Source: a bacterium
GTDB taxonomy: Bacteria > Planctomycetota > Planctomycetia > Kolteriales > Kolteriaceae
DNA length: 64,000 bases
NCBI GenBank assembly: GCA_019748235.1
Contig: JAIEPU010000110.1
Location: 1-64,000 of the forward strand
Reading direction: 5' to 3'
Shown: one piece after another, positions 2,893 through 41,200 of the stretch
Numbering within the stretch: position 1 is the first letter of the stretch
Layout of the letters: each line of letters starts with the position of its first letter
Notes under the pieces: model-generated
Told to the model about the DNA's origin: nothing
What the model saw: only the letters and a program-made list of their open reading frames with translations
Database searches by the model: none
Program-made: the position numbers and the translations under genes

Positions 2893-2965
2893 GGGCGGTT
2901 AGCTCAATGGCTAGAGCACCTCGCTTACACCGAGGGGGTTGGGGGTTCGAGTCCCTCACCGCCCA
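2893..2965 (+). tRNA. tRNA-Val(TAC)
   Basis: Acceptor stem GGGCGGT/ACCGCCC, anticodon arm CCTCG-CTTACAC-CGAGG, T-loop GTTCGAGTC, discriminator A; 73 nt, no encoded CCA. Confidence 0.92.
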
Positions 2966-4244
2966 CTAGACATTTGTGCATTAAATCGCAAGTGCTCGCA
3001 AATCCAGGAAAAACACTCGTTTCGTGATCCGGCATCTTGTGTTGTGACATCTGCCTACGTTCCAGTTCCGCTCCTTGCTGCGTCGTCTGGCGCGTCGTTT
3101 CTATTAGAGCGTCAACTGATGAATCATCTTTGCCGGTAGGTGTTGTCGCCGCATGCGCGAAGTGCTCATCGGTCAGTTGCAGGTAGTGCTTGGCGGCAAT
3201 CTGTTGAGAGTTGCCGATCCACTTCACGACGACATGCAGTGGATACGCTTCCGCCAATTCTGTCTCGCGAGTGCTGCGAAGGTTCTGCCAAAGCTTCGGC
3301 CAAGCCGTTAGTCCTGCTCGTCGAATGATGCGTTCCAGTCGCGTACGCAGATTGACCGTCGCATCCCGACAGCACGTAACGACCCATTCGGCATTCGGCT
3401 TAGCTACGGCGAAGGCTGCTTCGAGATAGGGACGAAGTTCGGGGAAGATCGGCACGACTCTCGATTCGCCCCCTTCATGATGTTCGGTCTTGGGCGCATG
3501 CACCAGCATTCGGCCATTCTTCCAATCGATGTCCTTCCATTGTAGCTTCGTCGGTTCGCTCGGAACTCGCAGCCCGCCGAATCGGGCCAATGCAAAGAGC
3601 AACCTCCACTGTTCGTCGGGACAAGCGTCGAGTACTTTGCGAGTTTCTTCCCTCGTGATGAAATAGAACCGCTTCGTGTTGGCTTTCACAGCCGCCACCA
3701 AATCGGTGAAGGGATTCTCGTTGATGAGCTTGCGGCGAACTGCCACGCGAAAGAATTGCTTTGCGATGCCGCAACGACGGCGCACCGTGTTGTCCGCAAG
3801 CTTTTGATCGTTCATCAACCATGCGCGCCACTGATCCGCGTCGCCAGAATGGATTTCACGAAGTGCCTTCTTCTCTCCGAAGTATTCCACTAAGCAGCGT
3901 CGAGTATGCCCATAGACGATTGATGTCGCTGCTTTCACATCAGACCGGCTGAGAATGTACGCATCTAGGAAGGCCCCCAACGTGCTCGACTGCCGCTGGG
4001 CAATTAGTCCCACCGAAGCAAGCTTGTCGGCCAAATCCTCGCCGATATTCGCGAGCCACCTGGCGGTTTCATCATCCAAAGGATGGCGAGAAATCTGTGC
4101 CGAATTAAGCTGTTCAACCCTAAGCTTAATTGAGGTCGCCGCTTTGATCGACATCTTGCCGAGATACAAGGTCTTCCGCTGACTCTCTTTGTTAACAAAA
4201 AGAATTCGCCTTCGCCCCGAGGAGTCCGTGGAGACGCTTGCCAT
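2925..4244 (-). CDS. int: Tyrosine recombinase/integrase; 3' end antisense to tRNA-Val
   Basis: Core motifs ARFGGLRVPSEPTKLQWKDIDW, LRSTRETEL, WIGNSQQIAAKHYLQL; ORF ends ...VGGEGLEPPTPSV encoded by the complement of the tRNA gene. Confidence 0.9.
   Translation of the reverse strand: MASVSTDSSGRRRILFVNKESQRKTLYLGKMSIKAATSIKLRVEQLNSAQISRHPLDDETARWLANIGEDLADKLASVGLIAQRQSSTLGAFLDAYILSRSDVKAATSIVYGHTRRCLVEYFGEKKALREIHSGDADQWRAWLMNDQKLADNTVRRRCGIAKQFFRVAVRRKLINENPFTDLVAAVKANTKRFYFITREETRKVLDACPDEQWRLLFALARFGGLRVPSEPTKLQWKDIDWKNGRMLVHAPKTEHHEGGESRVVPIFPELRPYLEAAFAVAKPNAEWVVTCCRDATVNLRTRLERIIRRAGLTAWPKLWQNLRSTRETELAEAYPLHVVVKWIGNSQQIAAKHYLQLTDEHFAHAATTPTGKDDSSVDALIETTRQTTQQGAELERRQMSQHKMPDHETSVFPGFASTCDLMHKCLVGGEGLEPPTPSV
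2945..2967 (+). repeat. attL: attL: GTTCGAGTCCCTCACCGCCCACT
   Basis: Identical 23-bp copy at 45739-45761; lies in the 3' end of tRNA-Val. Confidence 0.88.
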
Positions 4245-4301: not shown

Positions 4302-4517
4302 TCATGTCATCGCGCGAGCGGAGCTTTTCTGTTGCTGCTCCGTCACCCAGGATTGGAGCGAATCGCGACTAAAGAGAAGCCGACGACCGAGACGAAGATG
4401 CGGAATCTGCCGTTCCTGCACCAGCGTCCAAAGGCTTCGCTCGCAAATACCCAAGAGGTAAGCCGCTTCCTTGATCGACACGAGAATTCGATCATTCAAG
4501 CCATCAGCTACGTTCAT
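4302..4517 (-). CDS. Excisionase-like helix-turn-helix DNA-binding protein
   Basis: LVSIKEAAYLLGICERSLWTLVQERQIPHLRLGRRLLFSRDSLQSWV, HTH_17/MerR-type. Confidence 0.75.
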   Translation of the reverse strand: MNVADGLNDRILVSIKEAAYLLGICERSLWTLVQERQIPHLRLGRRLLFSRDSLQSWVTEQQQKSSARAMT

Positions 4518-4579: not shown

Positions 4580-4816
4580 TCATCCGCTTGCCATTTCTCG
4601 CGTCGGCTGCTGAGGACAACCTTCCTCGATCCAAGATTTCACTTCGGCGAGTCGCCAGCGGACCGTTCCGCCAAGCCGGACTGGCTGGGGGATTCGCCCT
4701 TCACTGAGCATTCGCCAAATTTGGCGAAGTGACACATTGAGCTTCTGTGCGAACTCCTTGGCCGTGATGAGCAGCGGTTCGTCCGATGTTCCCATTGATG
4801 CCATACTGCCGGACAT
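4580..4816 (-). CDS. Excisionase-like helix-turn-helix DNA-binding protein
   Basis: LLITAKEFAQKLNVSLRQIWRMLSEGRIPQPVRLGGTVRWRLAEVKSWIEEG; start chosen at MSGSMASMG inside ORF 4580-4960. Confidence 0.75.
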   Translation of the reverse strand: MSGSMASMGTSDEPLLITAKEFAQKLNVSLRQIWRMLSEGRIPQPVRLGGTVRWRLAEVKSWIEEGCPQQPTREMASG

Positions 4817-4981
4817 GGCTATTCTCCTATTTGATGACCCACTTCCAGATGAGGGTGGCCTTCTCCCGAAGCATTTCAGGATGACGCTGATTGAATGCCC
4901 CCAGCTTGTAAAACGCATAACAACTCGCGAAGTAGAACAGGCTCGAATAAGACATTGCACTTCTCTCCATGATCTCTTTGC

Positions 4982-5941: not shown

Positions 5942-7441
5942 TTATCGCTTCTGCTTGAAGGTGGCGTAACGCCACGTGCGGCCGGTATCGCGGAAGACCT
6001 TGCCACTTTGAAAAACAATGCCGTCGATATTTCCCCCGTGCGCAGCACCTCCCGTACGGAGCATCGTGAACGCCGAGGGTTGCACTTCGAAGTCGATGTT
6101 CTCGCTGATCCCTGAGCTTGTCTGCGATTCGGGAGCGCCCAGAAGGGAACCAATCCAATCGCGCGAAATCGGTTGCGTATTAGCGTTAATGAAGAATTGC
6201 CGCGTTCGGCCGATTAATGAACTTCCCCATTCATTGGTGATCGGATCGCCATTGGCATGGAATATCTTCGTCGTCAGGTTGCCGAAGATGGAGTCGGCCT
6301 GCGCCTTCCCTTGCGTTCCCTCCCCCAGCGCACTGTAAAAGTTCGAGATATTCTGCGTAAGAAACACCGTCGCCACGCGCGAGGAGCGGCAGGTCGAGAG
6401 GAACTCCATGTCGGCCGCATTGACGAGGAACTGAGCCTCGTCGATCCACAGAAAGACAGGGCGAGGACTGGACTGGATATTTCGCCGTTCGATCGAGCGT
6501 TCGAAGGCATACTTCCAAATTGACTGCGCTAAGAGACCTACTTCGCCATACTCTTTGATGGGCATATCCACGACGATGATATGCCCATCTTCAGCAGCCT
6601 CTGGGGTTACATTCGTTTCCTCGCAGAGAAGGTCACGAAGAATCCCGCGCTGAAGAGAATCAGCGAGAGTGGAGAATGTCGAGATGATGATTCCTCGGGT
6701 CTTAGGACTGAGATCGACGAATTCCCCGATGAAGTAGTCGGCAACAATACCGAAGTCGCGCTGATGGCGGGGCGTTTTTCGCTTCCGTTCCGCCTCCATC
6801 AAACATTGGTAACAAAATGAGTTCTTCTGCCATTCCTTTGACTTCAGTTGCTCCCGCGACTTTGGAGCGGTGATCACCAATTGGTAGAGTTCAGGAATGC
6901 TCACGCGGCCCAGGCTGAAGGCAAGAAGATCAACGAGATTCCGGCAGAGCTGCCGGCAGGCCCGTTCCCAATACTCCCCATTCTCCCGCCCTCCCCCTTT
7001 GCCGGAGGACCGCTCGGAAATCTCCATCGCCGCCATGAAGAGACGGACGATGTTCTCGGTAAGCCCCGCCCCTTTACCGGGGCGGGTCATCTCATGATTG
7101 AGGAAGTTGAACTTCCAAGGCTCGCTGGGACAAAAGCGAACTAGGTCACGGCTTCGTCCCGTCTGAGCAGCCAGTGACTTCCAGAACTTCCAATCGTCCT
7201 TCACGAGAAGGACAATTCCGCCGTAACCGGCAAGCATGAATTTTTCGGCAATCCATGCACCGCTTCCTGTTGTCTTGCCGCTCCCGGTGGCTCCTGTGAT
7301 CAGCGTTCCCGCATAGGAATCCTGACAGGTGAAGGCCTCCCGATGTGACCAGCGGATGAGTGGCTGAGTGGCGGGCCAAATGTCCCGCCTCGTTCGTCTT
7401 GACTTGAGCACCGGTCTTGTCTTTTGACTGAAAGGCCACAT
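5942..7441 (-). CDS. VirD4/TraD/TraG-like type IV coupling ATPase
   Basis: Walker A GTLITGATGSGKTTGS, Walker B VFLWIDEAQFL, and FLTQNISNFYSALGEG motif typical of conjugative coupling ATPases. Confidence 0.82.
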   Translation of the reverse strand: MWPFSQKTRPVLKSRRTRRDIWPATQPLIRWSHREAFTCQDSYAGTLITGATGSGKTTGSGAWIAEKFMLAGYGGIVLLVKDDWKFWKSLAAQTGRSRDLVRFCPSEPWKFNFLNHEMTRPGKGAGLTENIVRLFMAAMEISERSSGKGGGRENGEYWERACRQLCRNLVDLLAFSLGRVSIPELYQLVITAPKSREQLKSKEWQKNSFCYQCLMEAERKRKTPRHQRDFGIVADYFIGEFVDLSPKTRGIIISTFSTLADSLQRGILRDLLCEETNVTPEAAEDGHIIVVDMPIKEYGEVGLLAQSIWKYAFERSIERRNIQSSPRPVFLWIDEAQFLVNAADMEFLSTCRSSRVATVFLTQNISNFYSALGEGTQGKAQADSIFGNLTTKIFHANGDPITNEWGSSLIGRTRQFFINANTQPISRDWIGSLLGAPESQTSSGISENIDFEVQPSAFTMLRTGGAAHGGNIDGIVFQSGKVFRDTGRTWRYATFKQKR

Positions 7442-11109: not shown

Positions 11110-12330
11110 ATGACTACAACTCATAACTCAACGCCTGACGACGCCACGAATCCATTTCTCGGCTATCTCTATCAGCTCAGATTTGCCCTTCTTGGTGGGC
11201 TTACTCTTCGCGACCCCTATGACAGTGTTGCCGTGGAATTCTTGGACGATGTACAATTCGCAACATCTAATGGCACGACCTTGCAGCTCCATCAACTCAA
11301 ACATTCGATTAATAAGAAATCCAGCCTTGGACCCAGATCAGAAAATCTTTGGAAGACAATCGGAAATTGGTCGAACAAGGTTTCTAATAAGCAAATCGAC
11401 CTCAACACGACTAACTTGTACCTCAATACTTCAGGGGCACTTACGTCACATAGCCCCCTTACACACTTAAAACTCCACAATCGCAATGAGGCAATGGCAA
11501 TCAGCGAACTTTTAGCTGCGGCCTCTTCGTCGTCCAATTCAGTGGTGAAAGATAATTTAGCAAAATTCCAATCTCTCAATCAGAGCGATCAACATCTGCT
11601 ATTATCTCAAATTATCGTACTAGATTCCGAAGTCAACATAATTGAGGCCGCCGACGAAATTGAGCGTGCATTAGCTATTTCGTCTCGCCCAGAAGACTTG
11701 AGCAAACACAGACAGTTTCTCGAAGGCTGGTTCTTTAGTCGGATAATTGAAAGTTTAACTGGAAATGACGCGAGGCTAATCGCTGTACAAGAGATTCGAA
11801 ATCACTCTGTTATAGTTCGTGATTTTCTCGTCACGGATGAATTGCCTGGGCTGCCAATCGCACCCATCCCTAAAGCAGAGTTTAACAATGAAGATCCAAG
11901 ATTATTCGTCGAGCAACTTCGAATAATCTGTGCGCGAGATGGGCGAATTCGAAGGGCCCAAACAGAACATTTTCAAGCGCTTACCAAACGATCAGAATGG
12001 TCTAGAGAAGGAAAACTTGCGATCGAAGAATTACCGAAATTCGACAGCCGCTTGATTGTGGAGTGGCAGATCCGACATGAATCAGCGTGCTCTAACTCGG
12101 AGGAAGCTGACAATGATACCATAATGCAAGAGGCCCAGCGTGTTTACAAATGGGTCGAAGAGGAAGCTCCCTCATCATCACAATTATATATTCGAAGATC
12201 ATTCTCCGAACCATTCTTGATCCGCGGCTCATATCATATGCTTTCTGACCGATTAGAAGTCGGATGGCACCCGAGATACAAGGAAATGCTCGCGAACAAT
12301 AGTTCAGACAATAAGGACGACAACCCATGA
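11110..12330 (+). CDS. ABC-three-component (ABC-3C) system effector-like protein with REase-like N-terminus
   Basis: GYLYQLRFALLGGLTLRDPYDSVAVEFLDDVQF...LQLHQLKHSIN...LWKTIGNWS (E...D...QxK pattern); overlaps next gene by 4 nt and is followed by middle component and DUF3732 ATPase. Confidence 0.75.
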   Translation: MTTTHNSTPDDATNPFLGYLYQLRFALLGGLTLRDPYDSVAVEFLDDVQFATSNGTTLQLHQLKHSINKKSSLGPRSENLWKTIGNWSNKVSNKQIDLNTTNLYLNTSGALTSHSPLTHLKLHNRNEAMAISELLAAASSSSNSVVKDNLAKFQSLNQSDQHLLLSQIIVLDSEVNIIEAADEIERALAISSRPEDLSKHRQFLEGWFFSRIIESLTGNDARLIAVQEIRNHSVIVRDFLVTDELPGLPIAPIPKAEFNNEDPRLFVEQLRIICARDGRIRRAQTEHFQALTKRSEWSREGKLAIEELPKFDSRLIVEWQIRHESACSNSEEADNDTIMQEAQRVYKWVEEEAPSSSQLYIRRSFSEPFLIRGSYHMLSDRLEVGWHPRYKEMLANNSSDNKDDNP

Positions 12331-12845
12331 TGCTGTCCAGTCTCTTTACCGAGCATCCATATCCCGACGAACTGTTAAACCTGTACAATCCAGCCTATGT
12401 GGCTTCGATTGTATATCTTGGCGGAAGAGCATTTCGATCAAAAACTAAACGCAATATTCCCATCTATTTTCCATATATTATATTTCCTCTTATCTCAATA
12501 GATTCTTGTCGTTGCCGACTTCCTTACAAAACGGGCAAATTGTCGGACTGGGCTCGTCAAAACGGCGACGTTCTGTTTGATTTTCCTGAACGAGTGCTCG
12601 CTCTACGCCCTTTCGTAACCTCGGGGTTGATTTATTTACAGTCTCATTCGTTGCTTAGGATAGATAACAATGCAATGACCTTGAATATTGTCTCTCGCAA
12701 GTCTCTTACAAGATCTTTAAGCAGCATCATACTCTCTTCCGAAGATGTTCGAGATGAACTCGAAAGAGCACCAGCTGCGGGACGCCTCTTGTCTGCCGAG
12801 GGAGAGGTGTCTTCCGTCTTGGCAATTTTTGGACTTAAACCATGA
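12327..12845 (+). CDS. ABC-3C system middle component
   Basis: Small protein between effector and DUF3732 ATPase with 4-nt start/stop overlaps on both sides; family assigned mainly by context. Confidence 0.65.
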   Translation: MMLSSLFTEHPYPDELLNLYNPAYVASIVYLGGRAFRSKTKRNIPIYFPYIIFPLISIDSCRCRLPYKTGKLSDWARQNGDVLFDFPERVLALRPFVTSGLIYLQSHSLLRIDNNAMTLNIVSRKSLTRSLSSIILSSEDVRDELERAPAAGRLLSAEGEVSSVLAIFGLKP

Positions 12846-14788
12846 CATTTCAAGTACTCAGCTTGAGTATCTATTCGCACGACAACCGAAGACGTGATGT
12901 TAATTTTCGACTTGGAAAGTTAAATATAATTACTGGACGGTCAGAAACCGGCAAATCGACATTAGTTTCAATAATTAATTATTGCTTGGGATCGGACAAG
13001 TATCAAATACCGGTAGATGTCATTCATGATAGCTGCTCTTGGTTCGGAGTGCTATTTGAAAAACCCGAATCGGGGGCTACTGTGTTTGTCGCCAGACCAA
13101 GACTTCCTGATAGTCAAAAAACCCATTCAGGAGCATGTGTCGTTCTGGGAGCGCGAGATCCTTTGGAATTCCATGAACTCTCTCTAAATGCAAATACCGA
13201 CGTTATTTTAAATACACTTGGTTCATTCTCAGGTATTGGTGACATTGAGACTGCTCCAGAAGAAGGACGGACTACAGAACCGATTCAACCAGGCATCAGG
13301 CACGCCAGGGATCTTATTTTGCAACCACAAAGTATTCTCGCGAGCGAGAAGCAGCTTCTCTATGGAACCGATGATTACTGGGAGAAAACTCATTTACGAG
13401 ACTGCATGCCCTACTTCCTTGGCGTTGTAACGGAAGACTTATCGCAAAAGAGGGCACGTATTCGGGATCTACGGCGAGAGGTTAAGTTACTCGAATTGCG
13501 CGAGCAGAAAATGTTGCAATTCTCAGATCGGGTCGTACTAGAAACGACAGTCCTGGTCGCGAAGGCCATTGATGCGGGCATGAGCATAATTCCGCCTGTA
13601 AACGGTGGTATCGAGAATGGATTACTGGCTGTTAAGAAGATTGCTGATTGGATTGAGTCAGAGGATACGGCAATTGCCTCAGAAGGCGAGGAACTCCCTC
13701 GACTTCGAGAAAGGCTTACCGAATTGGATCAAGAGATTGATGCAATAAGGTCCCAACTAGAATCTGCTGAAGCCTTCTCTATTAGGGCATCTACATTTGC
13801 TGGCGAAGGAGCAAGGCAAGATAGCCGCGTTAAGCTTATTTCGATATTTGGAAAAACAACCAACCCTCCAATGTGTCCGTTGTGCAATACAAAAATTGAT
13901 AAAGAGGACGCGGTTCTTGAACAGCTTATGGCATCATCTGAAAGATTGTCAGCCCAATTAGGTGCAGCTGAGCGGCAACGTCCACGACTAGCAAAGTATC
14001 TTGACGAGCTCAGAACCGAGGTTGCGACAAGGAAACAAGAATCGAATAATCTTAAAAGAGCGATCTATGCTCTAATCGAATCAAGTCGTGTATTACGCGA
14101 GCGACGCGAAGCTTCTTATAAACGAGCGAGAATATCAGGACAGGCGGCCGCCATTTTGGCGTCATTAGAGTCAGATTCGATTGCCGCAATTGATGCGCCG
14201 AGAAAACGTAAGCTTTTGCGCGAGCTCAAAATTCTCGAAGATTCTTTTGGCGACGATGCAATTGCCGAGAAAATGAGGGCTGCGGAGACAATTATTGCGT
14301 CTAGTGTTCAACGATATGCGAGTTCTATGAATCTAGCGCAAGCCGATACTCCACTTTTATTTGATATGAAAGAATTGACGCTTCGATTCGTAGTGGGCCT
14401 TCAATCAGTAACCTTAGAGCGAATTGGTGCGCAGAAAAACTGGGTTGGTTATCATATTGCAGTGATTCTCGCACTACATGACTGGTTTGTGAAGAATGAC
14501 AGGCCAATTCCCAGATTCGCCGTCTTTGACCAAGTGTCGCAACCATTCTTTTCGAACGAGAGCTTGTCTAACCCTGATCGTGCAGCAAAAGATTTGAAAG
14601 ATGAAGACCGAGAAGAAGTCTTGCAGATGATCGAAGAACTTTATAAATTTTGTATTCATAATATACAAAAAAGTCAGATCATTTTAACTGAGCATATTGA
14701 GAGCGATCAGCCTTGGTTTGTCGAGTCTGTCGTGGAAACTTGGCGTGGTGGTAATGCCTTAGTCCCAAATGACTGGCCGAGATTGTAA
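12842..14788 (+). CDS. DUF3732-type SMC/Rad50-like ABC ATPase of an ABC-3C system
   Basis: Walker A GKLNIITGRSETGKSTLVSIINYCLGS, mid-protein CPLCNTKI zinc-hook-like motif within coiled coil, C-terminal FAVFDQVSQPFF Walker B-like region. Confidence 0.85.
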   Translation: MTFQVLSLSIYSHDNRRRDVNFRLGKLNIITGRSETGKSTLVSIINYCLGSDKYQIPVDVIHDSCSWFGVLFEKPESGATVFVARPRLPDSQKTHSGACVVLGARDPLEFHELSLNANTDVILNTLGSFSGIGDIETAPEEGRTTEPIQPGIRHARDLILQPQSILASEKQLLYGTDDYWEKTHLRDCMPYFLGVVTEDLSQKRARIRDLRREVKLLELREQKMLQFSDRVVLETTVLVAKAIDAGMSIIPPVNGGIENGLLAVKKIADWIESEDTAIASEGEELPRLRERLTELDQEIDAIRSQLESAEAFSIRASTFAGEGARQDSRVKLISIFGKTTNPPMCPLCNTKIDKEDAVLEQLMASSERLSAQLGAAERQRPRLAKYLDELRTEVATRKQESNNLKRAIYALIESSRVLRERREASYKRARISGQAAAILASLESDSIAAIDAPRKRKLLRELKILEDSFGDDAIAEKMRAAETIIASSVQRYASSMNLAQADTPLLFDMKELTLRFVVGLQSVTLERIGAQKNWVGYHIAVILALHDWFVKNDRPIPRFAVFDQVSQPFFSNESLSNPDRAAKDLKDEDREEVLQMIEELYKFCIHNIQKSQIILTEHIESDQPWFVESVVETWRGGNALVPNDWPRL

Positions 14789-16598: not shown

Positions 16599-19500
16599 CT
16601 ATTCCGCTTCGTTCGATGGCAACTCAAAGGTACTTGCTATCGATCCCTGATCAGGCCCGAGGCGATAGATTCGGAGACCAAAGTCTTTTTCTTTTTTAAC
16701 CGCGAGAATCAGCATTTTACCTTTTGGGTGAAGAGCGAGGTTGAGAACCTCTTCGTTCGTTGATTCGAGTGTCAAAAGCTCAGACTTTGTAGGAACGTGC
16801 CAGAATTTGACTGTTTTCTCGGAATCGCGACTTACGAGAGTTTGGCTGTCGTGTGAAAACAAAACGTCTTCGACAGGACTATCATGAGCAATCAACCGGG
16901 CAGGAGGATCGTCAGATTTTAAATCCCAAAGGTAAATCACTGGCATGTGGCCACACCCAGCCATGAATTGGCCATTCGGAGAAACAACCATCCGATCGAT
17001 TTTATCCTTCATCGGACCGAAAACTCTCTGATATTGCTCATTCGGATGTTTTCGGAAAAAGAATCTCCTGGCACCATCCCTCTCAATCCAAATGTCTCCA
17101 TCCGGCGACGAAAACACCCCAATTAACTGGACATTATTCTGCCATTCATCAATTGCTTGGCCATTCTCGCTGTCGATGAGGATCGAGTGATCCATCACTC
17201 TGATTGCAAGTGCCTTCCCATCAGGTGAGTAAATGAACTGGTGCATGCCGGGTCGAGATTCACAAAGGCTCTTAATCACTTCGCCGTTTTCAGACGATCG
17301 AACAACAACTTTTCCATCGACTCCGAGCATCGCCAATTCATTACCCGACGGATCAAAAGCCGTGGGAAAGCGAACTTCGTATCCAAGTTGATTCGCCAAA
17401 ATCTCTGAGACAAAATCCTGAGTTATCGACCAGCATCTACGGCCTGTGTTCACGTCAAAAAGCGATGTCCGGACTTGCCCATTAAGAATTCGCTCACAGA
17501 GCATTAGCCATCTGCCGCAGGGAGAGAATCCGACAGCGATTGGATAGTATTTTAGAGGAGTATCGGAAGAATGACTTTGCTCAGGATTCTTCCAGATCCG
17601 AATCGTTCCATCCTTTCCTCCTGATACCATCCACTTACCATCAGGAGAAATGTCGGCGGTCAAAGCGCGGCCACTATGTCCAACAAAACACTCTCCGGTC
17701 GGATTATGCCCGCTCATAACCTCATCCAACTTCCATGTTTGAACTGATCCATCACGAAAAGTAGCGACTAGCAGGCCTACTTTCGAAGAATATCGAATAC
17801 TCTCGATGACACGGGATAACTTGAAGGATTTCATAATCTTACCGCTCGAAGAGTCACTGAAGCGAAGTTTGTTACCTCCACTTGTCACCACAATATTTTG
17901 ATTGACCGAGGCATGGCAGATTAATCCTGTCCCATCTATTGAATACTCACCCCCCCACCGCTCTGCTTCGCTCAAAGTCTCCGACTCAATTAAGACAATC
18001 TCCGATGGCGCTTTAGCAACCGCGATTAACTTACGCTCAGGAAGATAGCAAATCTCGGCTATCTCATTGGGATGCACTGGATCAATGGCTCGACTCTCAG
18101 CGGAGGGCTCCAGCGGAGGCGTCGCACGGGTATCGCCGGTGAGAGAATCGATCAACACAAGAATTCCGCCGTGGCCACCGACGGCTACACGGTGGGTATT
18201 TTCCAACCATTCGATGGCATATACCGGCCCGTCCAGGACTTTCTTGTTGAAGACAATTGAATAACCATCTGTCCGGTGAATCATGACACGGCCCGTTTCT
18301 CCGCCTACCGCTACGAATGCCCCATCTGCCGAAAACTCAGCCGCCTTCAGCGCCATACACGGTGCGTCAAATGCAATCTTGGTCTCCTTCCATGTCTTCA
18401 TATCCCAGAAAATGAGCCGAAAATCATTGCCGGCACTGATCATGAGATCTTGTGTGGGAGAGAATCGAACAGAGCGAACACCTCCGAAATTTGCTGGAAT
18501 GGCACGAACGCGGTCAACGTCGTTCATCAATGTGGTGAGAAGATCCCATTCAATTCCTTGATGGACTGGAGGTCGCACCAGCCGTTTTGCTTCTTCCAAA
18601 TGCGAAATCGTTTCCGTCTGGTTGCCTTGCGAATACGATTTTGCTGCATAACGGATGGCAGTGGCATATTCATGCTGCCGCTCCATTCCCTCCGCATTCG
18701 CAGCTGCCGCTTGCGCATCGTTGACTTTACGAGCATAGGAGTTTTGCTGGTCAAACATCATCCACGACAGGCCGCCAATGACCAGCAGACTGGCCATTCC
18801 AATTAATGTAAGGGCCGTAGCCCCAGGTGCACGTCGCACTCGCCTCACGCCGCGCTGCCAAACGCTTATGTGGCGAGCTTCGATTGGCTCGTGATTTAGA
18901 AATCGACGAATATCGTCGGCCAACTCCTTCGCGGACGGATAACGTCGACTGGGTGACTTTTCCAGACACTTAAAAACAATTGAATCAAGGTCTTTTGGAA
19001 CTGATTTCTTAATCGTCCGTATCGATGGCGGATCACTTTCGAGAATTTTGCGTCGAATTTGGTCGGCAGTGTCTCCCTCAAAGGGGCGGCGACCAGCGAG
19101 CATCTCGTACAAGATAACACCGAGCGAAAAGACATCGGAAGATGGCTTAGCATCACCGGACTCTCCGGCTGCTTGCTCGGGAGACATGTAGAAATCGGTA
19201 CCAACAAAGGCAATCGTCGTCGTCGCCTTCGAGAGTACCTCAACGATTCGACTTTGCCTGGCCATGCCGAAATCGGTGATAACGGGCTGGTAATGGAACT
19301 CACCGTCGGTTTCGAGCGGTCGCAGTAGGATGTTACTTGGTTTCAAGTCCCGGTGGGTGATATCCAGTTCATGCGCCTTTGCCATCGCGCACGCCACCTG
19401 ATGAATAATGATACCGGCGATTCGAGGAGTGACTGGGGAGTGACCTTTGATCCATTGGGCAAGGGTGGGACCCTCGATTAGGTCGAGGATGATGATAAAG

Positions 19501-19907
19501 GCGAGGCCGACATCGCCACCGTCATACACCTGAATAATGCCAGGATGCTTGAGGGCGGCGAGCGTCTTTGGCTCCCTTTCGAGATACTTCCCCAATTTCG
19601 GATTGAGCATCCAGGGCCAGGGACATTTGGCTGCGACCTTGCGGCCGAGATGAAGGTCAGTTGCTTGAAAGACCACCCCATGCGCGCCATGCCCGAGCAC
19701 CGCTTCAAGGCGGAATCTGCCTATCTGTAAGGGAACTGCTAGTGGTTCGGGGAAAATGCGGCTCTCGGAAGACTTTGCGTCTCTGTCCATGACGAAGTCG
19801 GTGAGGAACTCCAAGAGGCGCGAAATCTCTTTCGAGTCCTCTGACCGAAGATGCTTGCCGTTGGAGGTGACTTCACCGAAAGTGGAATCGTTACTGTTCT
19901 CCATCAT
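16599..19907 (-). CDS. Ser/Thr protein kinase with C-terminal WD40 repeats
   Basis: FRLEAVLGHGAHGVVFQATD, ITHRDLKPSNILL, ITDFGMAR; later WD40-like repeats (GKWMVSGGKDGTIRIWK). Start chosen at MMENSNDS. Confidence 0.9.
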   Translation of the reverse strand: MMENSNDSTFGEVTSNGKHLRSEDSKEISRLLEFLTDFVMDRDAKSSESRIFPEPLAVPLQIGRFRLEAVLGHGAHGVVFQATDLHLGRKVAAKCPWPWMLNPKLGKYLEREPKTLAALKHPGIIQVYDGGDVGLAFIIILDLIEGPTLAQWIKGHSPVTPRIAGIIIHQVACAMAKAHELDITHRDLKPSNILLRPLETDGEFHYQPVITDFGMARQSRIVEVLSKATTTIAFVGTDFYMSPEQAAGESGDAKPSSDVFSLGVILYEMLAGRRPFEGDTADQIRRKILESDPPSIRTIKKSVPKDLDSIVFKCLEKSPSRRYPSAKELADDIRRFLNHEPIEARHISVWQRGVRRVRRAPGATALTLIGMASLLVIGGLSWMMFDQQNSYARKVNDAQAAAANAEGMERQHEYATAIRYAAKSYSQGNQTETISHLEEAKRLVRPPVHQGIEWDLLTTLMNDVDRVRAIPANFGGVRSVRFSPTQDLMISAGNDFRLIFWDMKTWKETKIAFDAPCMALKAAEFSADGAFVAVGGETGRVMIHRTDGYSIVFNKKVLDGPVYAIEWLENTHRVAVGGHGGILVLIDSLTGDTRATPPLEPSAESRAIDPVHPNEIAEICYLPERKLIAVAKAPSEIVLIESETLSEAERWGGEYSIDGTGLICHASVNQNIVVTSGGNKLRFSDSSSGKIMKSFKLSRVIESIRYSSKVGLLVATFRDGSVQTWKLDEVMSGHNPTGECFVGHSGRALTADISPDGKWMVSGGKDGTIRIWKNPEQSHSSDTPLKYYPIAVGFSPCGRWLMLCERILNGQVRTSLFDVNTGRRCWSITQDFVSEILANQLGYEVRFPTAFDPSGNELAMLGVDGKVVVRSSENGEVIKSLCESRPGMHQFIYSPDGKALAIRVMDHSILIDSENGQAIDEWQNNVQLIGVFSSPDGDIWIERDGARRFFFRKHPNEQYQRVFGPMKDKIDRMVVSPNGQFMAGCGHMPVIYLWDLKSDDPPARLIAHDSPVEDVLFSHDSQTLVSRDSEKTVKFWHVPTKSELLTLESTNEEVLNLALHPKGKMLILAVKKEKDFGLRIYRLGPDQGSIASTFELPSNEAE

Positions 19908-20529
19908 CAAACCACCTTCGAAGCTGAGCGATGGCTGATTGGTACCGACGTCGCACGGTCCTTTCATCCACGCCTAGATTCGATGCAATCTCATTGAATT
20001 TCAATCCCTCCCAAAATCGAAGACCAAAAAGTAGTTGATCGTCAATGGGAAGCCGCTGGAAACAAATTTCAGCCCTTGTGAGATCTTCCTCTCGAATAGT
20101 CTGATCGAGAAGAGAACAGCTATCCTCATCCTTCTGCCGAGGAACGAGAATCTGTTGCCAAACATTTCGATGGAATCCTCGTCGCCGCGCAACACGTCTT
20201 CTCGCGTTAAGGAATTCCCATGACAGAGTGGACATTGCCCAGCGGCATAGCGATCGGTAGGTATCACCTTTGAACTCACCAAATCGGCTCGCAATCCGCA
20301 TCCAGGTATTCTGCGCGAAATCGGAGACGCTTCGCGAGGGGGTGCCAAACCCCTTTCCCACACACAGCGCGATCTTCTCTTGCAAATCGTGGAAGAGATG
20401 AGTGAACAATTCTTCTCGCGATCGATCACAACCAGCTTTCGATAGAGCAACCAATTGATCAAGGCGTGACTCGGGTTGGACCGTGTCATCCCCGTGCTTG
20501 AGCGTTCCTGCCGTCATACCACCACTCAT
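19891..20529 (-). CDS. ECF-type RNA polymerase sigma factor
   Basis: SDFAQNTWMRIASRFGEFKG..., FNEIASNLGVDERTVRRRYQSAIAQLRR region 4 HTH; overlaps kinase start; start chosen at MSGGMTAG. Confidence 0.8.
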   Translation of the reverse strand: MSGGMTAGTLKHGDDTVQPESRLDQLVALSKAGCDRSREELFTHLFHDLQEKIALCVGKGFGTPSRSVSDFAQNTWMRIASRFGEFKGDTYRSLCRWAMSTLSWEFLNARRRVARRRGFHRNVWQQILVPRQKDEDSCSLLDQTIREEDLTRAEICFQRLPIDDQLLFGLRFWEGLKFNEIASNLGVDERTVRRRYQSAIAQLRRWFDDGEQ

Positions 20530-21033
20530 CCCTAGTTTGGCCCATAATCGACGTACCAGATAATGGCAGGCCGGTAGGGAAAATACAACAAATCCAAGTG
20601 CTTGTGCTTTTTGGAAAAAACTCCACGATTTCCTGCCCGATTTCGTCCGCCGATGACTGCCACAACGATTGCCGTTGAAATCAGCAATTTCCACCGCCAA
20701 TTCAGACGGATTTCCTCCCGAACTCTCTTTCATTGTTACGGGAACGTAATCGCTGGGCGTACCCTGTGTCCTCAGACCCAGACATGCTGACTCGTGGTTC
20801 CTGGAAGGGCTGCCCGCACACATTTACGGATCTTGACGGACTTTTCGTTTTCAATGCCCGCTTGTGAGATCTTGTGACACTTATGAGATGGAGGCGATCA
20901 ATAGTATCCCCGTCAGGAACCACTCCCGGGTGGCTTACTGCTGAAGATTGTTTCTCCAACCGCGTAACACCAACCGTCAACCTGCCGTGCTCATCGAAGG
21001 AACACCACGGAGCAACCTTTTGAGGACAACTTC

Positions 21034-24202: not shown

Positions 24203-24658
24203 TCACGCCTCGATCATGATTGTCTCGATGATGACGTCCTTGGGCTCGGCATCCAGTTTCATGGTTTCATCTGCTTCCTTGATCCAAGGAACACGCTGGC
24301 GAACTAGAGCATCAAAGAGGCGAAGATTCGGCCTGATCTCACGGTGGAGGTTTCGTCCGGTGATTCGGGCTAGGGAATGGCCAAAGAATAGCGTGATGCC
24401 GACTGAGGGTTCGAATATCGCACGGTCGAGCCAGGCATAGGCGAGTGCCGTGATTGTTCCGTCATGCCCAATAAGCTCGAGCATGATGGCCCGTTCGCGT
24501 GCCCCTCGAAGCACACCGAAGGCCCCGTGATCATCTAAGACCACCTCCTCGTCCTGCGGCTTGGCGCTCTTTTCTAGCGGCGTATTCAGACCGTATTTGT
24601 CGAGAAGGCTAACGTTCGAGGACGAATTCTTCTCGCTGCCGTTCTTCAAGATTTTCAC
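24203..24658 (-). CDS. Hypothetical protein overlapping the relaxase 3' end
   Basis: 151-aa ORF collinear with relaxase gene, 50-nt overlap. Confidence 0.55.
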   Translation of the reverse strand: MKILKNGSEKNSSSNVSLLDKYGLNTPLEKSAKPQDEEVVLDDHGAFGVLRGARERAIMLELIGHDGTITALAYAWLDRAIFEPSVGITLFFGHSLARITGRNLHREIRPNLRLFDALVRQRVPWIKEADETMKLDAEPKDVIIETIMIEA

Positions 24659-27251
24659 GCGATGGTTTCCTTTCGTTGTTGCGATCCGCAGTCATTTGCC
24701 GGTGCGGAACGCTGTTGACAAGTTCGGTGGCGGTTAGTCGTTCGTCAGATTTCGAGACAGCCTCCAAGAGATCGGCTTTCTCTGATGTGTAGACGGTCAC
24801 GCGTTCTCTTGCACGGGAACAAGTGACATAGAACTGCTCGACCGATGATGCGGGAAAGGACTCATGCGACTGGGCGACCAGCGCCACATCGACGGATTTA
24901 CCCTGGCTGTTGATCGACGTCACCGCATAGCCGTGCGTGAAGAAGCCCCAATCCTTGTCAATCACCCAGCCATTACCAAGGACGATGTTCCCCTCTCGAT
25001 CGAACTCTTTGACCTGATAGAGCAAGCCGTTGTAGATGCGGTGCCCGTCAGCAGTTTCGCCATTCTTCGTGACCCGAATCATGTCTCCGGCCGACAGACT
25101 GATTCTTCCCGAGTGATAGACCTGGAAGCGATCCGCATGATCAAACGGAATGACCTCCGTGTCGCCCACGGCAAGCCGGGCTCCCCTAACATAGCCTTTG
25201 ACGTTCTGGTGAAAGACGATCTCGTCGCCGGGCGAATAACAAACCTGATCGCGTCGCTCCGCTTCCGTCAGGTTCGCATTTTCCAAGATGTTAAAGACTC
25301 GTTCCTCGTCAGAGAGTTCCCCTCGTTGGCGAAGGCGATCCCTCACCTCGTGCGTGATCTTTTTCCCCTCAGAATGCGTGGGTGCGATAATCAGTGTCGA
25401 ACGGCCTTCGCTTTGAGCGTGAACATAGTCATTGGCAAGTTCTGCATACCGCTCATCACTCGGAAACTCTCGAATCCACCCAAGATCATCGAGTCGCTTG
25501 AAGCCCTCGGCAACACGTCCTTCGCTCAAGGCTTTGACAGCGGACTTGTAACGGTCCTTCTGCCGCTGGATTTCCCTAACCTCGGCGGGCTTGATGCCCG
25601 CTTCCGTTTCAAGGAGCCGAAGAGCGGAACCTCTCTCGACAGAACCGTGCTGAAAGCGATCCCCCACGAGCAATACGCGAGCATCAAGTTGTTCGGCAAG
25701 ATCAAAGACTTGAGCCATTGTCTTGCTGCCGACCAACCCGGCTTCGTCGATCATGATCATTTGATGGCGAAGCTTCTCCTGCAGCTTCTTGTCGACAAGG
25801 AGACGAGCCACCGTGTCGGCATCCTCAAAGCCTGCTTTGGCAAGTGTGTCGCGACTCGCACTGGCCGATGGGGCGAAGGCATGGATTCTTGATCCTTTGG
25901 ATTCGATCGCCTCCGCTGCCTCGCGGAGCAAGGTCGACTTCCCTGTGCCGGAAATTCCTCGAACGATCATGGTTCGGTCGCGGGATTCCAGAATGTATTT
26001 GACCGCCTTCTTCTGATCATCATTGAGCCAGTCTCGTTTGAACGTATCGTGATGGGACGCATAGGGACGGCAGGTTCCCCTCCCCTCTCGGGCAAAGTCG
26101 ATCATCCGGCGTTCTTCGGCCAACACCTCTCTTGTGGTTACTAGTCGCTGCCCGTTCCGATCCGCATAGATGAGATGGTGACGCTGAGCTTGATCAAGAA
26201 CTTGTTCGGCGGTTGCCTGACCGACCGATTGCTTCAGCGCCGTTGCCAGGAATCGTCGTTCGGGAACAACAGACTGCCTCTCGAAGGAATGACTGACGGC
26301 GTGTTCAATGGCGCGAGCGGAGGCGTTACTGTCCCTCGGTTCCGGATCTCCCCCAATCTTCTTCGCGAGGGCTGCAATTGCCTTCTTCTCTGCCGGAGTC
26401 ATTCGCTCCTGCCAAATCTCTTGCAGTTCCGAGAAGGTAAGATCCTTCTGCTTATGCTCTCTGGTCTTGGCCCCGAGTTCGTCTTTGGCCTTGTCACTCT
26501 CGATCCCCATCTCTCGCGCCTTCTCTTCGATCTGCTGGGTGCGGCGAGAGAATTTGTCCCGAAGTGGCTTCTCGATCCCTGCAAGTTCCCAACCCTGCTT
26601 GGTTCGTTCGATGGGAAGCCCAAGATCACTCAGCTTGTGCGCGAGTCGGGAATGAAACAGAGCTTCGTAGTAAGGAGCATCCCGTTTAAGACTTTGAAAC
26701 TGCCCTGCTTTCCATTTCTCTTCTTCGCGGTCAAAAGTCAGCGAGTGAACGACGCAATGGGCATGGAGGTGGGGATCAGGGACGGAATTGACGGGTCTGG
26801 AAGTCAGATGAACAAATTCCCCCCAGACCGTATTGCCGGTGACTCGGTTCTCATTTTTTCGATCGACCCGAACGCGGGCGGCCATGTCTTCTTCGACATC
26901 TTCCATCGTCGACCGGACCGATTCTCGAAATGCCTGCATCACCCGATCATCTCGCGTGGACGCATAGAGGAGCGACACACTCTTGGGGACATGGAAGTTG
27001 AAGTCGTATGCTATTGTTCGATTCAACCGCAGCCTCCCCGTCAGGCATTCACCCGTTTCAGGATGGCGGTTATCACAGAGGGCATCCCAGTCCGACTGCT
27101 TGATTTCTCCCTGAAGACCAAGATGGCGGGCTGCTTTGCCATGCCAAAGGCCTGCGAGTTCCTGCGATTCCTCACCAGCCATGTAATAGTCCGGCTGAGT
27201 GTAATAACTCTTCACATGGGCCGCGTGTTTACTCTGGATGACTCGCAACAT
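24609..27251 (-). CDS. mobF: MobF-family conjugative relaxase (TrwC relaxase plus AAA helicase domain)
   Basis: DFNFHVPKSVSLLYA, DPHLHAHCVVHSLTFD HxHxH-type triad, helicase Walker A RGISGTGKSTLLREA, HGYAVTSINSQGKSVD. Confidence 0.93.
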   Translation of the reverse strand: MLRVIQSKHAAHVKSYYTQPDYYMAGEESQELAGLWHGKAARHLGLQGEIKQSDWDALCDNRHPETGECLTGRLRLNRTIAYDFNFHVPKSVSLLYASTRDDRVMQAFRESVRSTMEDVEEDMAARVRVDRKNENRVTGNTVWGEFVHLTSRPVNSVPDPHLHAHCVVHSLTFDREEEKWKAGQFQSLKRDAPYYEALFHSRLAHKLSDLGLPIERTKQGWELAGIEKPLRDKFSRRTQQIEEKAREMGIESDKAKDELGAKTREHKQKDLTFSELQEIWQERMTPAEKKAIAALAKKIGGDPEPRDSNASARAIEHAVSHSFERQSVVPERRFLATALKQSVGQATAEQVLDQAQRHHLIYADRNGQRLVTTREVLAEERRMIDFAREGRGTCRPYASHHDTFKRDWLNDDQKKAVKYILESRDRTMIVRGISGTGKSTLLREAAEAIESKGSRIHAFAPSASASRDTLAKAGFEDADTVARLLVDKKLQEKLRHQMIMIDEAGLVGSKTMAQVFDLAEQLDARVLLVGDRFQHGSVERGSALRLLETEAGIKPAEVREIQRQKDRYKSAVKALSEGRVAEGFKRLDDLGWIREFPSDERYAELANDYVHAQSEGRSTLIIAPTHSEGKKITHEVRDRLRQRGELSDEERVFNILENANLTEAERRDQVCYSPGDEIVFHQNVKGYVRGARLAVGDTEVIPFDHADRFQVYHSGRISLSAGDMIRVTKNGETADGHRIYNGLLYQVKEFDREGNIVLGNGWVIDKDWGFFTHGYAVTSINSQGKSVDVALVAQSHESFPASSVEQFYVTCSRARERVTVYTSEKADLLEAVSKSDERLTATELVNSVPHRQMTADRNNERKPSRENLEERQREEFVLER

Positions 27252-30743: not shown

Positions 30744-31688
30744 ATGGTCCGCCGTTTTCCACCAGCGATCGATCATCAGCCCGACCTTTTCGCCGCCAGC
30801 TTCGCTGATATTCCCATTCGTGATCAACGGGATGCGATGGAAAGACCGTTCTTCAGCCTCGCCAAAAGGCCTCGATTGGAGCCGATCAAATATCAGGTTG
30901 GCAACGTCTGGATCGAGGTGAGTGCCAATCCGCAATTCGGGATGGCGACCATTTGGGATGCCGACATTTTGATCTGGGCTTCGACGCAGATCACCGAGGC
31001 ACTCGATCGCAATCTCAAGCCCTCGCGAACCATTCATTTTCATCCATACAACTTGCTGCGATCCATCAGACGGACGACAGGAGGAGCAGACTATGTGCGA
31101 CTTCGCGCTGCACTTGAGCGGCTAACCCATACGGCAGTCCGTACCAACATCCGCGCCGAGGGACGAAAGAAGTTCGCGTCATTCCACTGGCTGGAAAGCT
31201 GGACGGAGACCATCGACGAAGCCTCGGGCGAACCGACCGGCATGACGATCACTTTGCCCGACTGGCTCTACAAGGGAGTCATTGAGCGGGGAGGGGTGCT
31301 GACCATCCACGAGGATTACTTCCTACTGACCGGAGGTATTGAACGATGGCTGTATCGAGTCGCTCGAAAGCACGCGGGAAGTCAGGAACACGGTTGGAGC
31401 TTTACGATGCGGCAACTCTATGAAAAGTCAGGCTCTTCTGCGCGAGTCTCGGACTTCGCTCTCGACATCCGGGGAGTCGTTCAAAGCAATCAACTTCCAG
31501 AGTACGAGTTGTCAGTAAATAGGAACGGGGAGGGAGATGAGATCGTGCATTTCGTTCACCGAAAGCATTTGGCCCTCGATCATCCCCATCGCGAATACTC
31601 GCGTTTTCCGGCAAGACGAAAATCCCAGGGCATCTTCTCACCCGCCTGGAAACTCAACACGTTCCTTGACGAAGACTCGGGCGATTAA
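30744..31688 (+). CDS. rep: RPA-type plasmid replication initiator protein
   Basis: DQRDAMERPFFSLAKRPRLEPIKYQVGNVWIEVSANPQFGMATIWDADILIWASTQI, PYNLLRSIRRTTGGADYVRLRAALERLTHTAVRTNIR; iterons immediately downstream. Confidence 0.88.
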   Translation: MVRRFPPAIDHQPDLFAASFADIPIRDQRDAMERPFFSLAKRPRLEPIKYQVGNVWIEVSANPQFGMATIWDADILIWASTQITEALDRNLKPSRTIHFHPYNLLRSIRRTTGGADYVRLRAALERLTHTAVRTNIRAEGRKKFASFHWLESWTETIDEASGEPTGMTITLPDWLYKGVIERGGVLTIHEDYFLLTGGIERWLYRVARKHAGSQEHGWSFTMRQLYEKSGSSARVSDFALDIRGVVQSNQLPEYELSVNRNGEGDEIVHFVHRKHLALDHPHREYSRFPARRKSQGIFSPAWKLNTFLDEDSGD

Positions 31689-37161: not shown

Positions 37162-37631
37162 TCGCGACTCCTGACAGTGATCGAATGATCGGCACAAAGA
37201 ATTGCCCGGCAAACCGCAAAACAGGTTTGCCTCTTGGCGCTTATGTGCGGGGACAAGCGTGAAGCGGACGGAGAATTTGCGTGGAAGTGGAATTATTTTC
37301 GAAAAAGATGGAGTGATGCCGTTGAGTCGACGTGAGGTCTAAAACAACAACGCTCACGAAAGTGTTTCCACTAGGTCCGGTAGCAAGCGTGAAGCGGACG
37401 TTTTCTGTCGAAACATTTAGGAAATCCCGCGTCCATGCCATCAACTTGTCTATTTGGCAGATCTTCCCACGGCTTCATGTCTATCGCCCTGAGAAGGAGG
37501 AAAGATTCACTACTGGCTGGCCGATCGGGTCTATTGTTTCCGCCACTAGCTGCGATCATAATTGCCGCCACACATGTGGCCGATGCGGATCATTTGGCCG
37601 TCGGCGTTTATGGATCAACCGCGAGAACCGT

Positions 37632-38261
37632 ATGCCCTCATCCTCGCCGAATGGAATTCCCAACGCGAAGAACGACGAACTCGTCGATGCGGCGAGGAAC
37701 GGCTCATCCGTTGCTATGGGAGAGCTTTTGCAGTCTTGCCGGGCCTACTTATTGGCCATCGGCGAAAGCGAGCTAACGGCCGATTTACGGATCAAGGTTT
37801 CTCCGTCGGACTTGGTGCAGGAGACTTCGGCCCAAGCACAACGGTCGATGCCGACTTTTCGCGGGCAAACGCAAAAAGAGTTTCGGATGTGGGTTCGCGG
37901 CATCTTCATGAACAGGCTCGCCCAAGCACGGCGGAAATTCAAAGGAACAGAGGGGCGTGACATAGGGCGCGAAGAACGGCAACTCAACAGCAGTTCGATT
38001 CTGGACCTTGCCAATCGGGTACTCGACAATGAGACCCCAAGCCAAATGGCGATTCGCAAAGAGGATCAAGCGTCACTTCGTGAGGCGATGGCACGGTTGC
38101 CGGAAGATTATCGTCAGGTCATCCGGCTACGAAATTTCGAACTTGTCAGCTTCCCAGAGATAGGCCGAACACTGGGCCGCACAGAAGAAGCTATGCGTAA
38201 ATTGTGGTTGCGGGCAATGAAACGTTTAAAGGAAGAACTTCATAGCCATGACTCCTCGTAA
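37632..38261 (+). CDS. ECF-type RNA polymerase sigma factor (planctomycete type)
   Basis: VSPSDLVQETSAQAQRSMPTFRGQTQKEFRMWVRGIFMNRLAQARRKF and region 4 FELVSFPEIGRTLGRTEEAMRKLWLRAMKRLKEEL; start at MPSSSPNG. Confidence 0.85.
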   Translation: MPSSSPNGIPNAKNDELVDAARNGSSVAMGELLQSCRAYLLAIGESELTADLRIKVSPSDLVQETSAQAQRSMPTFRGQTQKEFRMWVRGIFMNRLAQARRKFKGTEGRDIGREERQLNSSSILDLANRVLDNETPSQMAIRKEDQASLREAMARLPEDYRQVIRLRNFELVSFPEIGRTLGRTEEAMRKLWLRAMKRLKEELHSHDSS

Positions 38262-41200
38262 TAGCCCGCCGGATGATGAAGGTGCTGACCACGATCAACG
38301 CATTGTCGATCTATTGCTGCTGCGTCAGCGTCAGCTTATCGAAGAAAGTGTACTCCATACTCCTCTTTTGAAGCTGGACTCATCGTCAGCAACCGAAGAG
38401 ACCGCTATCGAGGATGCCAGCCTACTCGATGAAGCTTCTGAACTAGAAGAGTGCCTGCTGCTCTTAGAACAGGCGAGGCGTGAGGAATCCGCACGAGACG
38501 CCAAGGAGTCCGAGCAGCCAACGGATAAGAATTCTCCACCCAGCGATGACCATTTATCGGATTCAAGTCACCTCTTCGAAGAATACTTGAATCATTTGGA
38601 CGAGTCTGATGGTAACAGCCTCGCCACAGCCCCGTCTGGTGCCCTACTGGAAAAACAGCAGATCGGCCGCTTTAAGATCGTGCGTGAGCTTGGTCGCGGC
38701 GGGTTAGGCTTGGTGCTGTTAGCAAATGATCCACTACTGCGCCGACAGGTGGCGCTCAAAGTCCCCAAGCCCGAGGTTCTCTTTACGCCGAACTTACGTC
38801 ATCGTTTTCGCCGAGAGGCTATGGCAGCCGCAAGACTGACGCATCCCGGCATCGTGCCCGTGTATGAAGTGGGCGAGGCGGGGCCGATCATGTTCATCGC
38901 TGCCGCCTTCATTGAGGGGAAAAGCTTAGCTGCATCGCTCCATGAACTTGGACGGCCGGACGATCCGCGCATTGGTGCTTCGATCATCGCCGATCTGGCC
39001 GACGCGATGCATTATGCACACTCTCAGGGGGTGCTGCATCGAGACCTAAAGCCTGCCAATGTGCTCATTGAGCCTCGCCCAGTGGACGCCCCTTCAACAG
39101 AGGAAAAGGCCGCGTCAGCTACCGCAATAACATCATGGAATGACCCGCGAACGGTGAAGATCACCGACTTTGGCTTGGCCAAGATTATAGATCTCGCGGG
39201 GGATGAAACACGGTCAGGGGCAATCATCGGGACGCCGGCATATATGGCTCCCGAGCAAGCGAAAGCAGACCTTGGCCAGATCGGCCCCCTCGCGGACGTC
39301 TATGCGTTAGGGGCGATCTTGTATGAACTGTTGACAGGTGACGCGCCGTTTCGTGCTCCCTCGGATGCCGAGATGCTCCGATTGGTAGTAAGTGAAGAGC
39401 CTGTACCGCCGCGACAATTGAATCCGCTATGCCCCCGTGATCTTGAAGCCATCTGTCTGAAGTGCCTGGAGAAGTCGCCCACTCAAAGATACCAGTCAGC
39501 CGGGGAGTTAGCGGTCGACTTAAGACGCTTCCTGGCGGGTGAGCCGACGATAGCTCGTCCACTCTCAATGATGGGCCAAGTGATACGCTGGGCAGGGCGA
39601 AATCGCTCTTTGGCAGTCATGTTGTCAGCGGTAGTGCTTTTACTTTTAGGAGTTGCGATTGTTTCGACTGTTGCTGCTGTGCTTCTCAACAAAGCGTGGA
39701 AACGCGCCGACGAGAATGCGCATTCTGAGTGGCTCGCACGAGAAGAGGCGCAGCAGTTACGAGAGAGAAGTGAAAAACAACTTTTCGCCCACATGGAGCG
39801 CAATTACGCCACCGAAATCGCGTCTGCTTACCACTCGGCAGATAACGGTGAGTATTCGGCAGTCACGCGCAGCTTGGAATTATTTAAACCCGTCAAGGGA
39901 ATCCCTGACGTACGCGGTTGGGAGTGGCATTACCTCAATGAAAGGAATGAAGAAGCAAAGAGCTTCTCCAGCCATCTCCGGCAGATCACCGGCGATGGCA
40001 GTCCGGTTTATTGCGTTCAATTCACTAATCAGGGAGGGGAACTCTATTTCGGAACAAAGGAAGGCAATCTCTTCATTCACGACAGTCGGGATTTCAAACT
40101 CGCAAATCGAATTCATGCCCACAATTCCTGTATTAATTCGATTACGCTTTCCCGTGACGCGACACGAGTCATCACGACAAGTTGCGATAAAACAGCTATT
40201 TTATGGGATACAGCTAATTGGCGGCGGATCGCCGAACTGACATTCGATACTGAGGTCTGGACCGCACAATATGCCCCTGATGGCGGCACATTCGTACTCT
40301 GTAGCAATGGACTAGTTCCAAATTCTTCGGAACTACGTTTGTGCAATTCACATACTGGCGAGGTGATAGCTAAGTGGAAAGCGAATCAGGATATCAATCG
40401 TTTAGTGTTTTTAGACGAGCGAACATTGGTTGGTGCCAATCTGGCCGGTAAATTCACTCAATGGAATATGTCGCGTTCCGTACCAGACGAAGGGGAGCCG
40501 GCAATTTCAAAATCCCCAGTTGTTCCGAGACCTTACCGAAATGGTTTAATTTGGTCCCCAGATCTTCGCCATCTAGCTTATTTCTCCATAGACGGTGGTG
40601 CCCACAGTCTAGGCATATTCGATACGCTCACAAGGCATTCGAGACATTTTTCTCATGGCGGTTATACCGACATGCGAGGGGCCTTCTCGCCCGACGGGCG
40701 TATGCTGGTATTGCCTCACGGCGGGTTGCAAATGGAGATTCGCGCGTTAATTACCGGCGCACAGCTAGGTACCCTTGTTGGCCATCGCGAGCGTATTGAA
40801 AACGTAACGATTTCGCCTGATAGTAAAATCATCGCCACTGCGAGTTCCGACGGAACCGTCAATCTGTATTCGATCAAATCTCCGAAGCTATTCACGAGGA
40901 ACTTTAAAGAAGGTCACTATGTGACCTCAATCAGTACGGACATGAAGCGTGCATTTCTTATACAATTGCCGGGTGACGCGCTAGAGGTTATTGATTTGTC
41001 GCAGTATGCGCTGCTTGCGAGATACGAAACAATCGGAGAATTTCCTTTTAGTGAATTATATGTACACAATGTCTCGCATAACGAACGATGGGCATTATTC
41101 GCGACTCGGCCTCATGCCGGCAACCACAGCATTGAGGATCGTACATTGCTCCTGTTCGATTTGAAGTTGCGTCGAATCGTTTGGCGCGGTCCAGCGCATT

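Follow-up and report, generated by a model that had tools for sequence, protein, structure and literature searches.

Introduction

In the Myxococcus phages Mx8 (IntP/IntR; AF396866) and Mx9, the phage attachment site attP lies inside the gene of the tyrosine integrase (int), and in Mx8 integration replaces 112 C-terminal residues by 13 (PMC4701971, PMC6070905). In its modified form, the Mx8 integrase was reported to have lower activity than the integrase of the excised element (PMC4701971), and a review describes it as not inactivated, with an altered specificity (PMC6070905). This kind of C-terminal exchange has been treated as a rarity, present in "very few integrative elements" (PMC4701971). 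Here, a similar arrangement is described for an apparently mobilizable, plasmid-like element integrated in a tRNA gene of a planctomycete (class Planctomycetia). The window, meaning the whole stretch of 64,000 nucleotides analysed (assembly GCA_019748235.1, contig JAIEPU010000110.1, positions 1 to 64,000, forward strand), comes from contig C322 of a draft genome of 6.34 Mb in 326 contigs, 89.8% complete.

As in Mx8, the attP core of the window lies inside the int open reading frame (ORF), which in the circle is open in frame on both sides of the core, and integration exchanges a long C-terminus for a few residues; in the window, the catalytic domain is kept. The gene layout is also similar: Mx8 int comes after an excisionase gene (uoi), and int of the window is preceded by an AlpA/HTH_17 protein and an excisionase-like ORF. 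The Mx8 protein contains an antisense-tRNA-like peptide (STGLEPVLLG) before its last ~110 residues. However, similarity between the two tails is not detectable (chance level in BLASTP), and the two integrases give only chance-level BLASTP matches. Mx8 is a phage whereas the window holds a putative mobilizable plasmid-like element, whose tail, unlike that of Mx8, is a conserved module common to many elements and to two integrase families.

The streptococcal integrative and conjugative elements (ICEs) in rumA also have the att site within the integrase gene, but they use a serine recombinase, the swap changes the translation frame and the target is a protein gene. The "suicidal" archaeal integrases of the SSV type have an internal att site and their gene is interrupted on integration; self-disrupting recombinases are called exclusively archaeal in a review (PMC8371274). 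In the SSV type, the catalytic part is parted from the N-terminus and the gene is inactivated, whereas the window integrase loses only a C-terminal module and keeps its catalytic domain whole. An SSV-type suicidal integrase was ruled out, since the catalytic and SAM-like domains are both found in the integrated form of 439 amino acids (aa).

In mycobacteriophage BPs, attP lies in a coding gene and integration alters the encoded C-terminus, giving integration-dependent immunity (PMC4557955). An earlier note on this DNA had named this system as a loose analogue; the closer one is phage Mx8 with its nearly identical device. In integration-dependent immunity, the altered protein is the repressor and not the integrase. 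Integration-dependent immunity proper was discarded, since attP of the window sits in int and not in a repressor gene.

The principle is already known, then, from Mx8 and Mx9, from the rumA ICEs and, more distantly, from the SSV integrases and integration-dependent immunity. As far as the literature searched goes, what is new is the class-wide spread, the conserved module without a name, the fact that two integrase families have it in common, and the integrase remnants at attR; the search on planctomycete integrases and attP found nothing on the subject.

Results and Discussion

Integrase gene and attachment cores of the window

The insertion target is an intact tRNA-Val(tac) gene, reconstituted at the left attachment site (attL). 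Its 3' end forms a perfect 23-bp direct repeat, GTTCGAGTCCCTCACCGCCCACT, and these two copies are the only matches to the core in the whole window, even with 3 mismatches allowed, with 0 expected. The features of the split gene are as follows.

2893-2966 (+): tRNA-Val(tac), insertion target (ARAGORN)
2925-4244 (-): short form of the tyrosine integrase, as integrated, 439 aa with the whole catalytic domain (ORF, PF00589, PF13102)
2945-2967 (+): attL core, 23 bp, tRNA 3' end, within the int frame (exact repeat)
45739-45761 (+): attR core, identical 23 bp, displaced tRNA 3' fragment (exact repeat)
45164-45738 (-): 191-codon C-terminal tail of the long form, with stop (ORF; homologues in the class)
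45362-45454 (-): tail module (i), NLPDSVRRIADAWSCLSPNIREAILTLVDAG, class-wide (profile A2)
45170-45300 (-): tail module (ii), ARECRSIIQGCLREEEWRNADLAFFDVI region, in long tails only, boundaries approximate (sequence comparison)
45762-45883 (-): probably what is left of an older integrase C-terminus, reading in frame with the core (tandem accretion; sequence match)

Past the attL repeat, the integrase ORF terminates ..VGGEGLEPPTPSV within the antisense tRNA; the earlier note had described this ending, and its coordinates and counts are right. Its statement that the attR repeat stands in the same frame with 191 further codons was borne out to the base, as the ORF at 45164-45883 (-) reads VGGEGLE in integrase phase and then 191 open codons. 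When the ends were joined at the core as in excision, the integrase ORF of the virtual circle ran free of stops for 624 aa, the length predicted (counted from the ATG; 625 if the one codon before it is included). Upon integration, 191 aa are swapped for PPTPSV, and PF00589 (residues 195-361, profile positions 2-172 of 172) is complete in the 439-aa form, together with the SAM-like PF13102. The tail itself has no ATG from the core to the module. The motif RIADAW..LVDA, thought to end the tail, is not terminal, and a second helical segment (TWRLARECRSIIQGCLREEEWRNADLAFFDVIQAG) comes after it. Neither a second junction nor a circle contig turned up when attR-region sequence was used to search the genome of the window.

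Recurrence across the class

Relatives of the integrase were found in 319 of 398 class genomes at E <= 0.001, and many of the best ones end in antisense-tRNA peptides. Relatives of the tail were found in 21 of the 398 with the 191-aa query, and in 175 with profile A1 at the loose limit E <= 0.01. Most tails have no ATG of their own and start in frame in antisense-tRNA peptides of differing tRNAs.

Integrase and tail pairs with an exact core of 18-63 bp at a tRNA 3' end numbered 24, each on one contig, in 19 genomes and 9 families; 9 belong to the window's integrase family (the window included) and 15 to a second family. Cases with no clear core (G308:C268, G134:C135, the first pair of G297:C1, G110:C6, G100, G187a and the nearer tail of G029) were left out, and so was G219:C15, which contains a stop. 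In all 24, int and tail are on the same strand with the tail on the 5' side, and both are in the same frame, where chance would give about 8; the result is a single ORF with the conserved module at its end. The predicted long form of the relatives is about 430-725 aa. This continuity, kept through different tRNAs although the tails use all three frames of the T-arm, together with the lack of an ATG between core and module in nearly all tails, makes it highly improbable that the far end of the element holds the tail as a small gene of its own, in frame with int by coincidence, an explanation to which the free-standing ORFs of ~65 aa with module (ii) in family f2 would lend some support.

Frame statistics were also obtained from the tails. 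Among the 92 with enough upstream DNA, 49 showed a complement of the T-loop 40-260 nt upstream of the module, where 0.7 were expected on shuffles. From this point to the module, 47/49 were open in frame versus 6/100 for the other two frames, and the T-arm was read in all three frames among tails. Complete tRNA genes (Glu, Val, Leu, Asn, Ser, Phe) stand on the integrase side of most family-1 pairs, and the attR-side stretches contain just 7 among 95.

A sample chosen blind to the tail comprised 20 integrases, mostly on long contigs, for which the core was sought in 40 kb on the element side (11 kb only for one). The attR core was found for 13. Past it, the median was 61 open codons in the int frame compared with 15 and 11 in the others, and at least 45 open codons were found in 9/13 cases in the int frame versus 1 and 3 in the other frames. 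With a module profile built from other genomes, 8 of 10 scorable tails beat nearly all shuffles (at most 3/200 reach them). From one window alone, the open frame at attR could have been a chance ORF or decayed coding DNA irrelevant to the element; the recurrence and the frame statistics refute this, and its probability is now close to nil.

The exceptions in this sample were three genus-g10 cases with 0-10 codons, G066a, which lacks the module, and G313, whose tail is different. In genus g10 (L264-L265, L270-L271, L287-L288), with an integrase of the same family, 0-10 codons are open past the core and the tail seems absent. Homologues with an integrase ending before the core, which the earlier note would have counted against its proposal, are limited to this minority lineage. 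Common as it is, the integrase-core-tail arrangement is not universal.

Relatives with an intact tail had also been predicted, and one was found in G146. This genome has two integrase copies, 95% identical over 677 bp, with common sequence into the core; the copy on G146:C68 (L296) runs into tRNA-Lys (attL), while that on G146:C30 (L115, L295) runs into a tail as an uninterrupted ORF. The G146:C30 copy could come from an excised circle or from a tandem junction. The two contigs break at the same point in int. With the long form present there and the arrangement general and conserved among relatives, the claim that circle and chromosome encode two integrase forms is strongly supported.

Tail module

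Module (i), of ~31 residues (about PDLARVVAAWPTLPEHIRAAILALVDAA), is common across the class. Trp occurs in 92/92 aligned copies (the alignment anchor required it) and Leu in 99%. Diversity at codon positions 1/2/3 was 0.47/0.35/0.63 in the module and 0.70/0.69/0.73 in the linker, which points to constraint on positions 1 and 2 of the module, with position 3 freer, and to a linker near unconstrained. Loci L171, L172 and L195 were left out of this test. At these loci, an unrelated protein of chromosomal appearance (RELWRVVSVDGSTRIFQTKPA..) has a motif resembling module (i) (ELTSVTQAWPSLSPGIRGAVMALIRAA) at its end, with no adjoining att core.

Module (ii) was found in the window and few others, in long tails only. 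The same module (RIARQCRxIVQACLREEEWxDADREFY) also occurs as free-standing ORFs of ~65 aa in family f2, a different family of the class (L051, L052, L054, L056, L059).

Searches with the tail module against Pfam, NCBIfam and PDB sequences gave no family at a meaningful E-value. A single-sequence structure model of the tail was poor (pLDDT 38), so helices are only suggested. In the class, the module comes after the core in two distinct integrase families, and in a phylum-wide sample it gave matches at E <= 1e-6 also in four genomes outside the class. In viral contigs, a relative of module (i) was not confirmed, and one relative of module (ii) (L068) and one distant integrase were found. The tail was not found in plasmids, which gave distant integrases only; the phages searched for the integrase likewise gave distant ones only.

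Flank of attR and tandem arrays

The DNA to the right of attR (45762-45883, -) also reads in frame as an integrase-like segment preceding the core, DLPRFAKECELLQMKR|VGGEGLE compared with VFPGFASTCDLMHKCL|VGGEGLE. It matches the integrase from query residue 403 and has 75% DNA identity with 2945-3015. Therefore, this "chromosomal" flank is probably not virgin but derived from an older related element, left as a remnant at the same tRNA. Similar signs of integrase remnants were seen on the far side of attR in G198, G231, G080, G144 and G054. Integrase remnants at attR point to serial insertion at one tRNA. At L110 (G112:C331:1-6500), an integrase, a tail and a second integrase lie inside 5 kb, and a core joins the tail to the second one; this would be a very small element or a deletion derivative.

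These remnants, and the full resident integrases that adjoin foreign tails, raise the alternative that tandem arrays are the selected context, the tail of an incoming element being given to the resident integrase at the common core and acting there, not in the free circle. However, at both resident/foreign-tail junctions tested (G193:C12 and G146:C265) the frames differ, while cognate pairs always match, so this alternative is considered very unlikely. With 2/2 non-cognate junctions out of frame, the tRNA sequence itself does not force the frame match.

Proposed switch

The sequences show that the gene is split at the core with its frame preserved, that this split recurs and that the tail module is conserved. 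An integration-coupled C-terminal exchange of the tyrosine integrase is the best explanation, and we regard it as quite probable. The attP core lies within the int frame, between the catalytic domain and the conserved C-terminal, putatively helical module. In this proposal, translation of int in the excised circle would continue across the core and on into the tail (624 aa here), and this long form would perform attP x attB integration, since the circle can make no other. Integration into the tRNA gene would leave the tail at the opposite end of the element, without a start codon, and would end int inside the antisense tRNA, leaving a short form with the catalytic domain intact. Any later excision would therefore have to be initiated by the short form, probably aided by the excisionase-like HTH proteins whose genes directly precede int, and would restore the long form. 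We infer that the long form is the product of circles and the short form that of integrated copies.

The recurrence in many related elements across the class suggests a built-in switch between the free and inserted states. The module is conserved yet untranslatable from a start of its own while integrated, and therefore it is argued to work in the circular state. It is plausible that the tail biases integration versus excision, i.e. controls directionality. Less certain is that it raises integration activity or lowers excision, so that its loss would stabilise the inserted state, as proposed for Mx8. A further reading, to which we give slightly less than an even chance, is that this previously undescribed C-terminal module would be a directionality domain, carried by two integrase families only while the element is a free circle. 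Each integration would then disarm the enzyme and each excision re-arm it, because the att core separates enzyme and module, amounting to a protein-coding, self-resetting memory of the integration state, class-wide in tRNA-targeting islands.

Several observations weigh against the proposed switch. In genus g10 only 0-10 codons follow the core and G066a has no module, so the tail would be dispensable in some lineages. The linker is poorly conserved and tail length ranges from about 50 to 190 aa. Pairwise dN/dS over the whole tail is only moderate (~0.2-0.95 in most pairs, >1 in one), a weak signal because the linker is free, and the codon-position test is partly biased, since the module copies were collected with a protein profile. 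The unconserved linker, the variable length and the tail-less lineage g10 would all fit a collateral truncation, in which the att core merely lies in the 3' part of int, the tail serves as a stable or soluble end for the integrase of the circle, and its loss has no regulatory role; integrases also end in arbitrary antisense-tRNA residues, apparently tolerated. Nevertheless, two distinct integrase families and many families of the class have retained this module behind the core, although a stop after the core would do, and it is constrained at the protein level, so that collateral truncation is judged rather unlikely.

For the exchange itself, the conserved module makes the role of the lost tail and the direction of recombination testable by genetics. 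Concerning annotation, integrated islands hold a truncated integrase and an orphan, startless ORF at the other end. Therefore, most integrase entries for these bacteria in databases are probably truncated, and attR can be located precisely with the help of the orphan ORF. A short module that only the circle carries would be a lead for one-way integration tools.

Other genes of the element

Between the cores, a TrwC relaxase, a TraG-type coupling protein, an RPA-type replication initiator, ParA, ParB, a resolvase and ArdC are encoded. The element also has ABC-three-component (ABC-3C) and HipA-type genes, a gene for a YhcG nuclease, and two kinase-WD40 genes accompanied by sigma factors. Integrase, relaxase and coupling protein genes between att sites, as found here, mark an integrative conjugative or mobilizable element. 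No type IV secretion genes were found among the larger ORFs scanned, and the cautious reading is an integrative, mobilizable plasmid-like element and not a conjugative one. The main genes are listed below.

4302-4517 (-): 71-aa ORF directly upstream of int, excisionase-like HTH (by eye), candidate directionality factor (sequence)
4580-4960 (-): 126-aa AlpA/HTH_17 protein, second candidate directionality factor (PF12728, PF05930)
5942-7441 (-): TraG/TraD-type coupling protein (PF12696)
11110-14788 (+): ABC-3C cargo genes (CTD7, MC3, DUF3732)
24609-27251 (-): TrwC relaxase/helicase (PF08751)
30744-31688 (+): plasmid replication initiator, RPA (PF10134)

The two kinase-WD40 proteins, of ~1100-1200 aa, are encoded at 16599-20823 and 37332-41832, each adjoining a sigma-70 region 4 protein. 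Just beyond the element, at 48900-50608 (+), there are two neighbouring genes of the RlaP family (RNA repair polymerase-beta).
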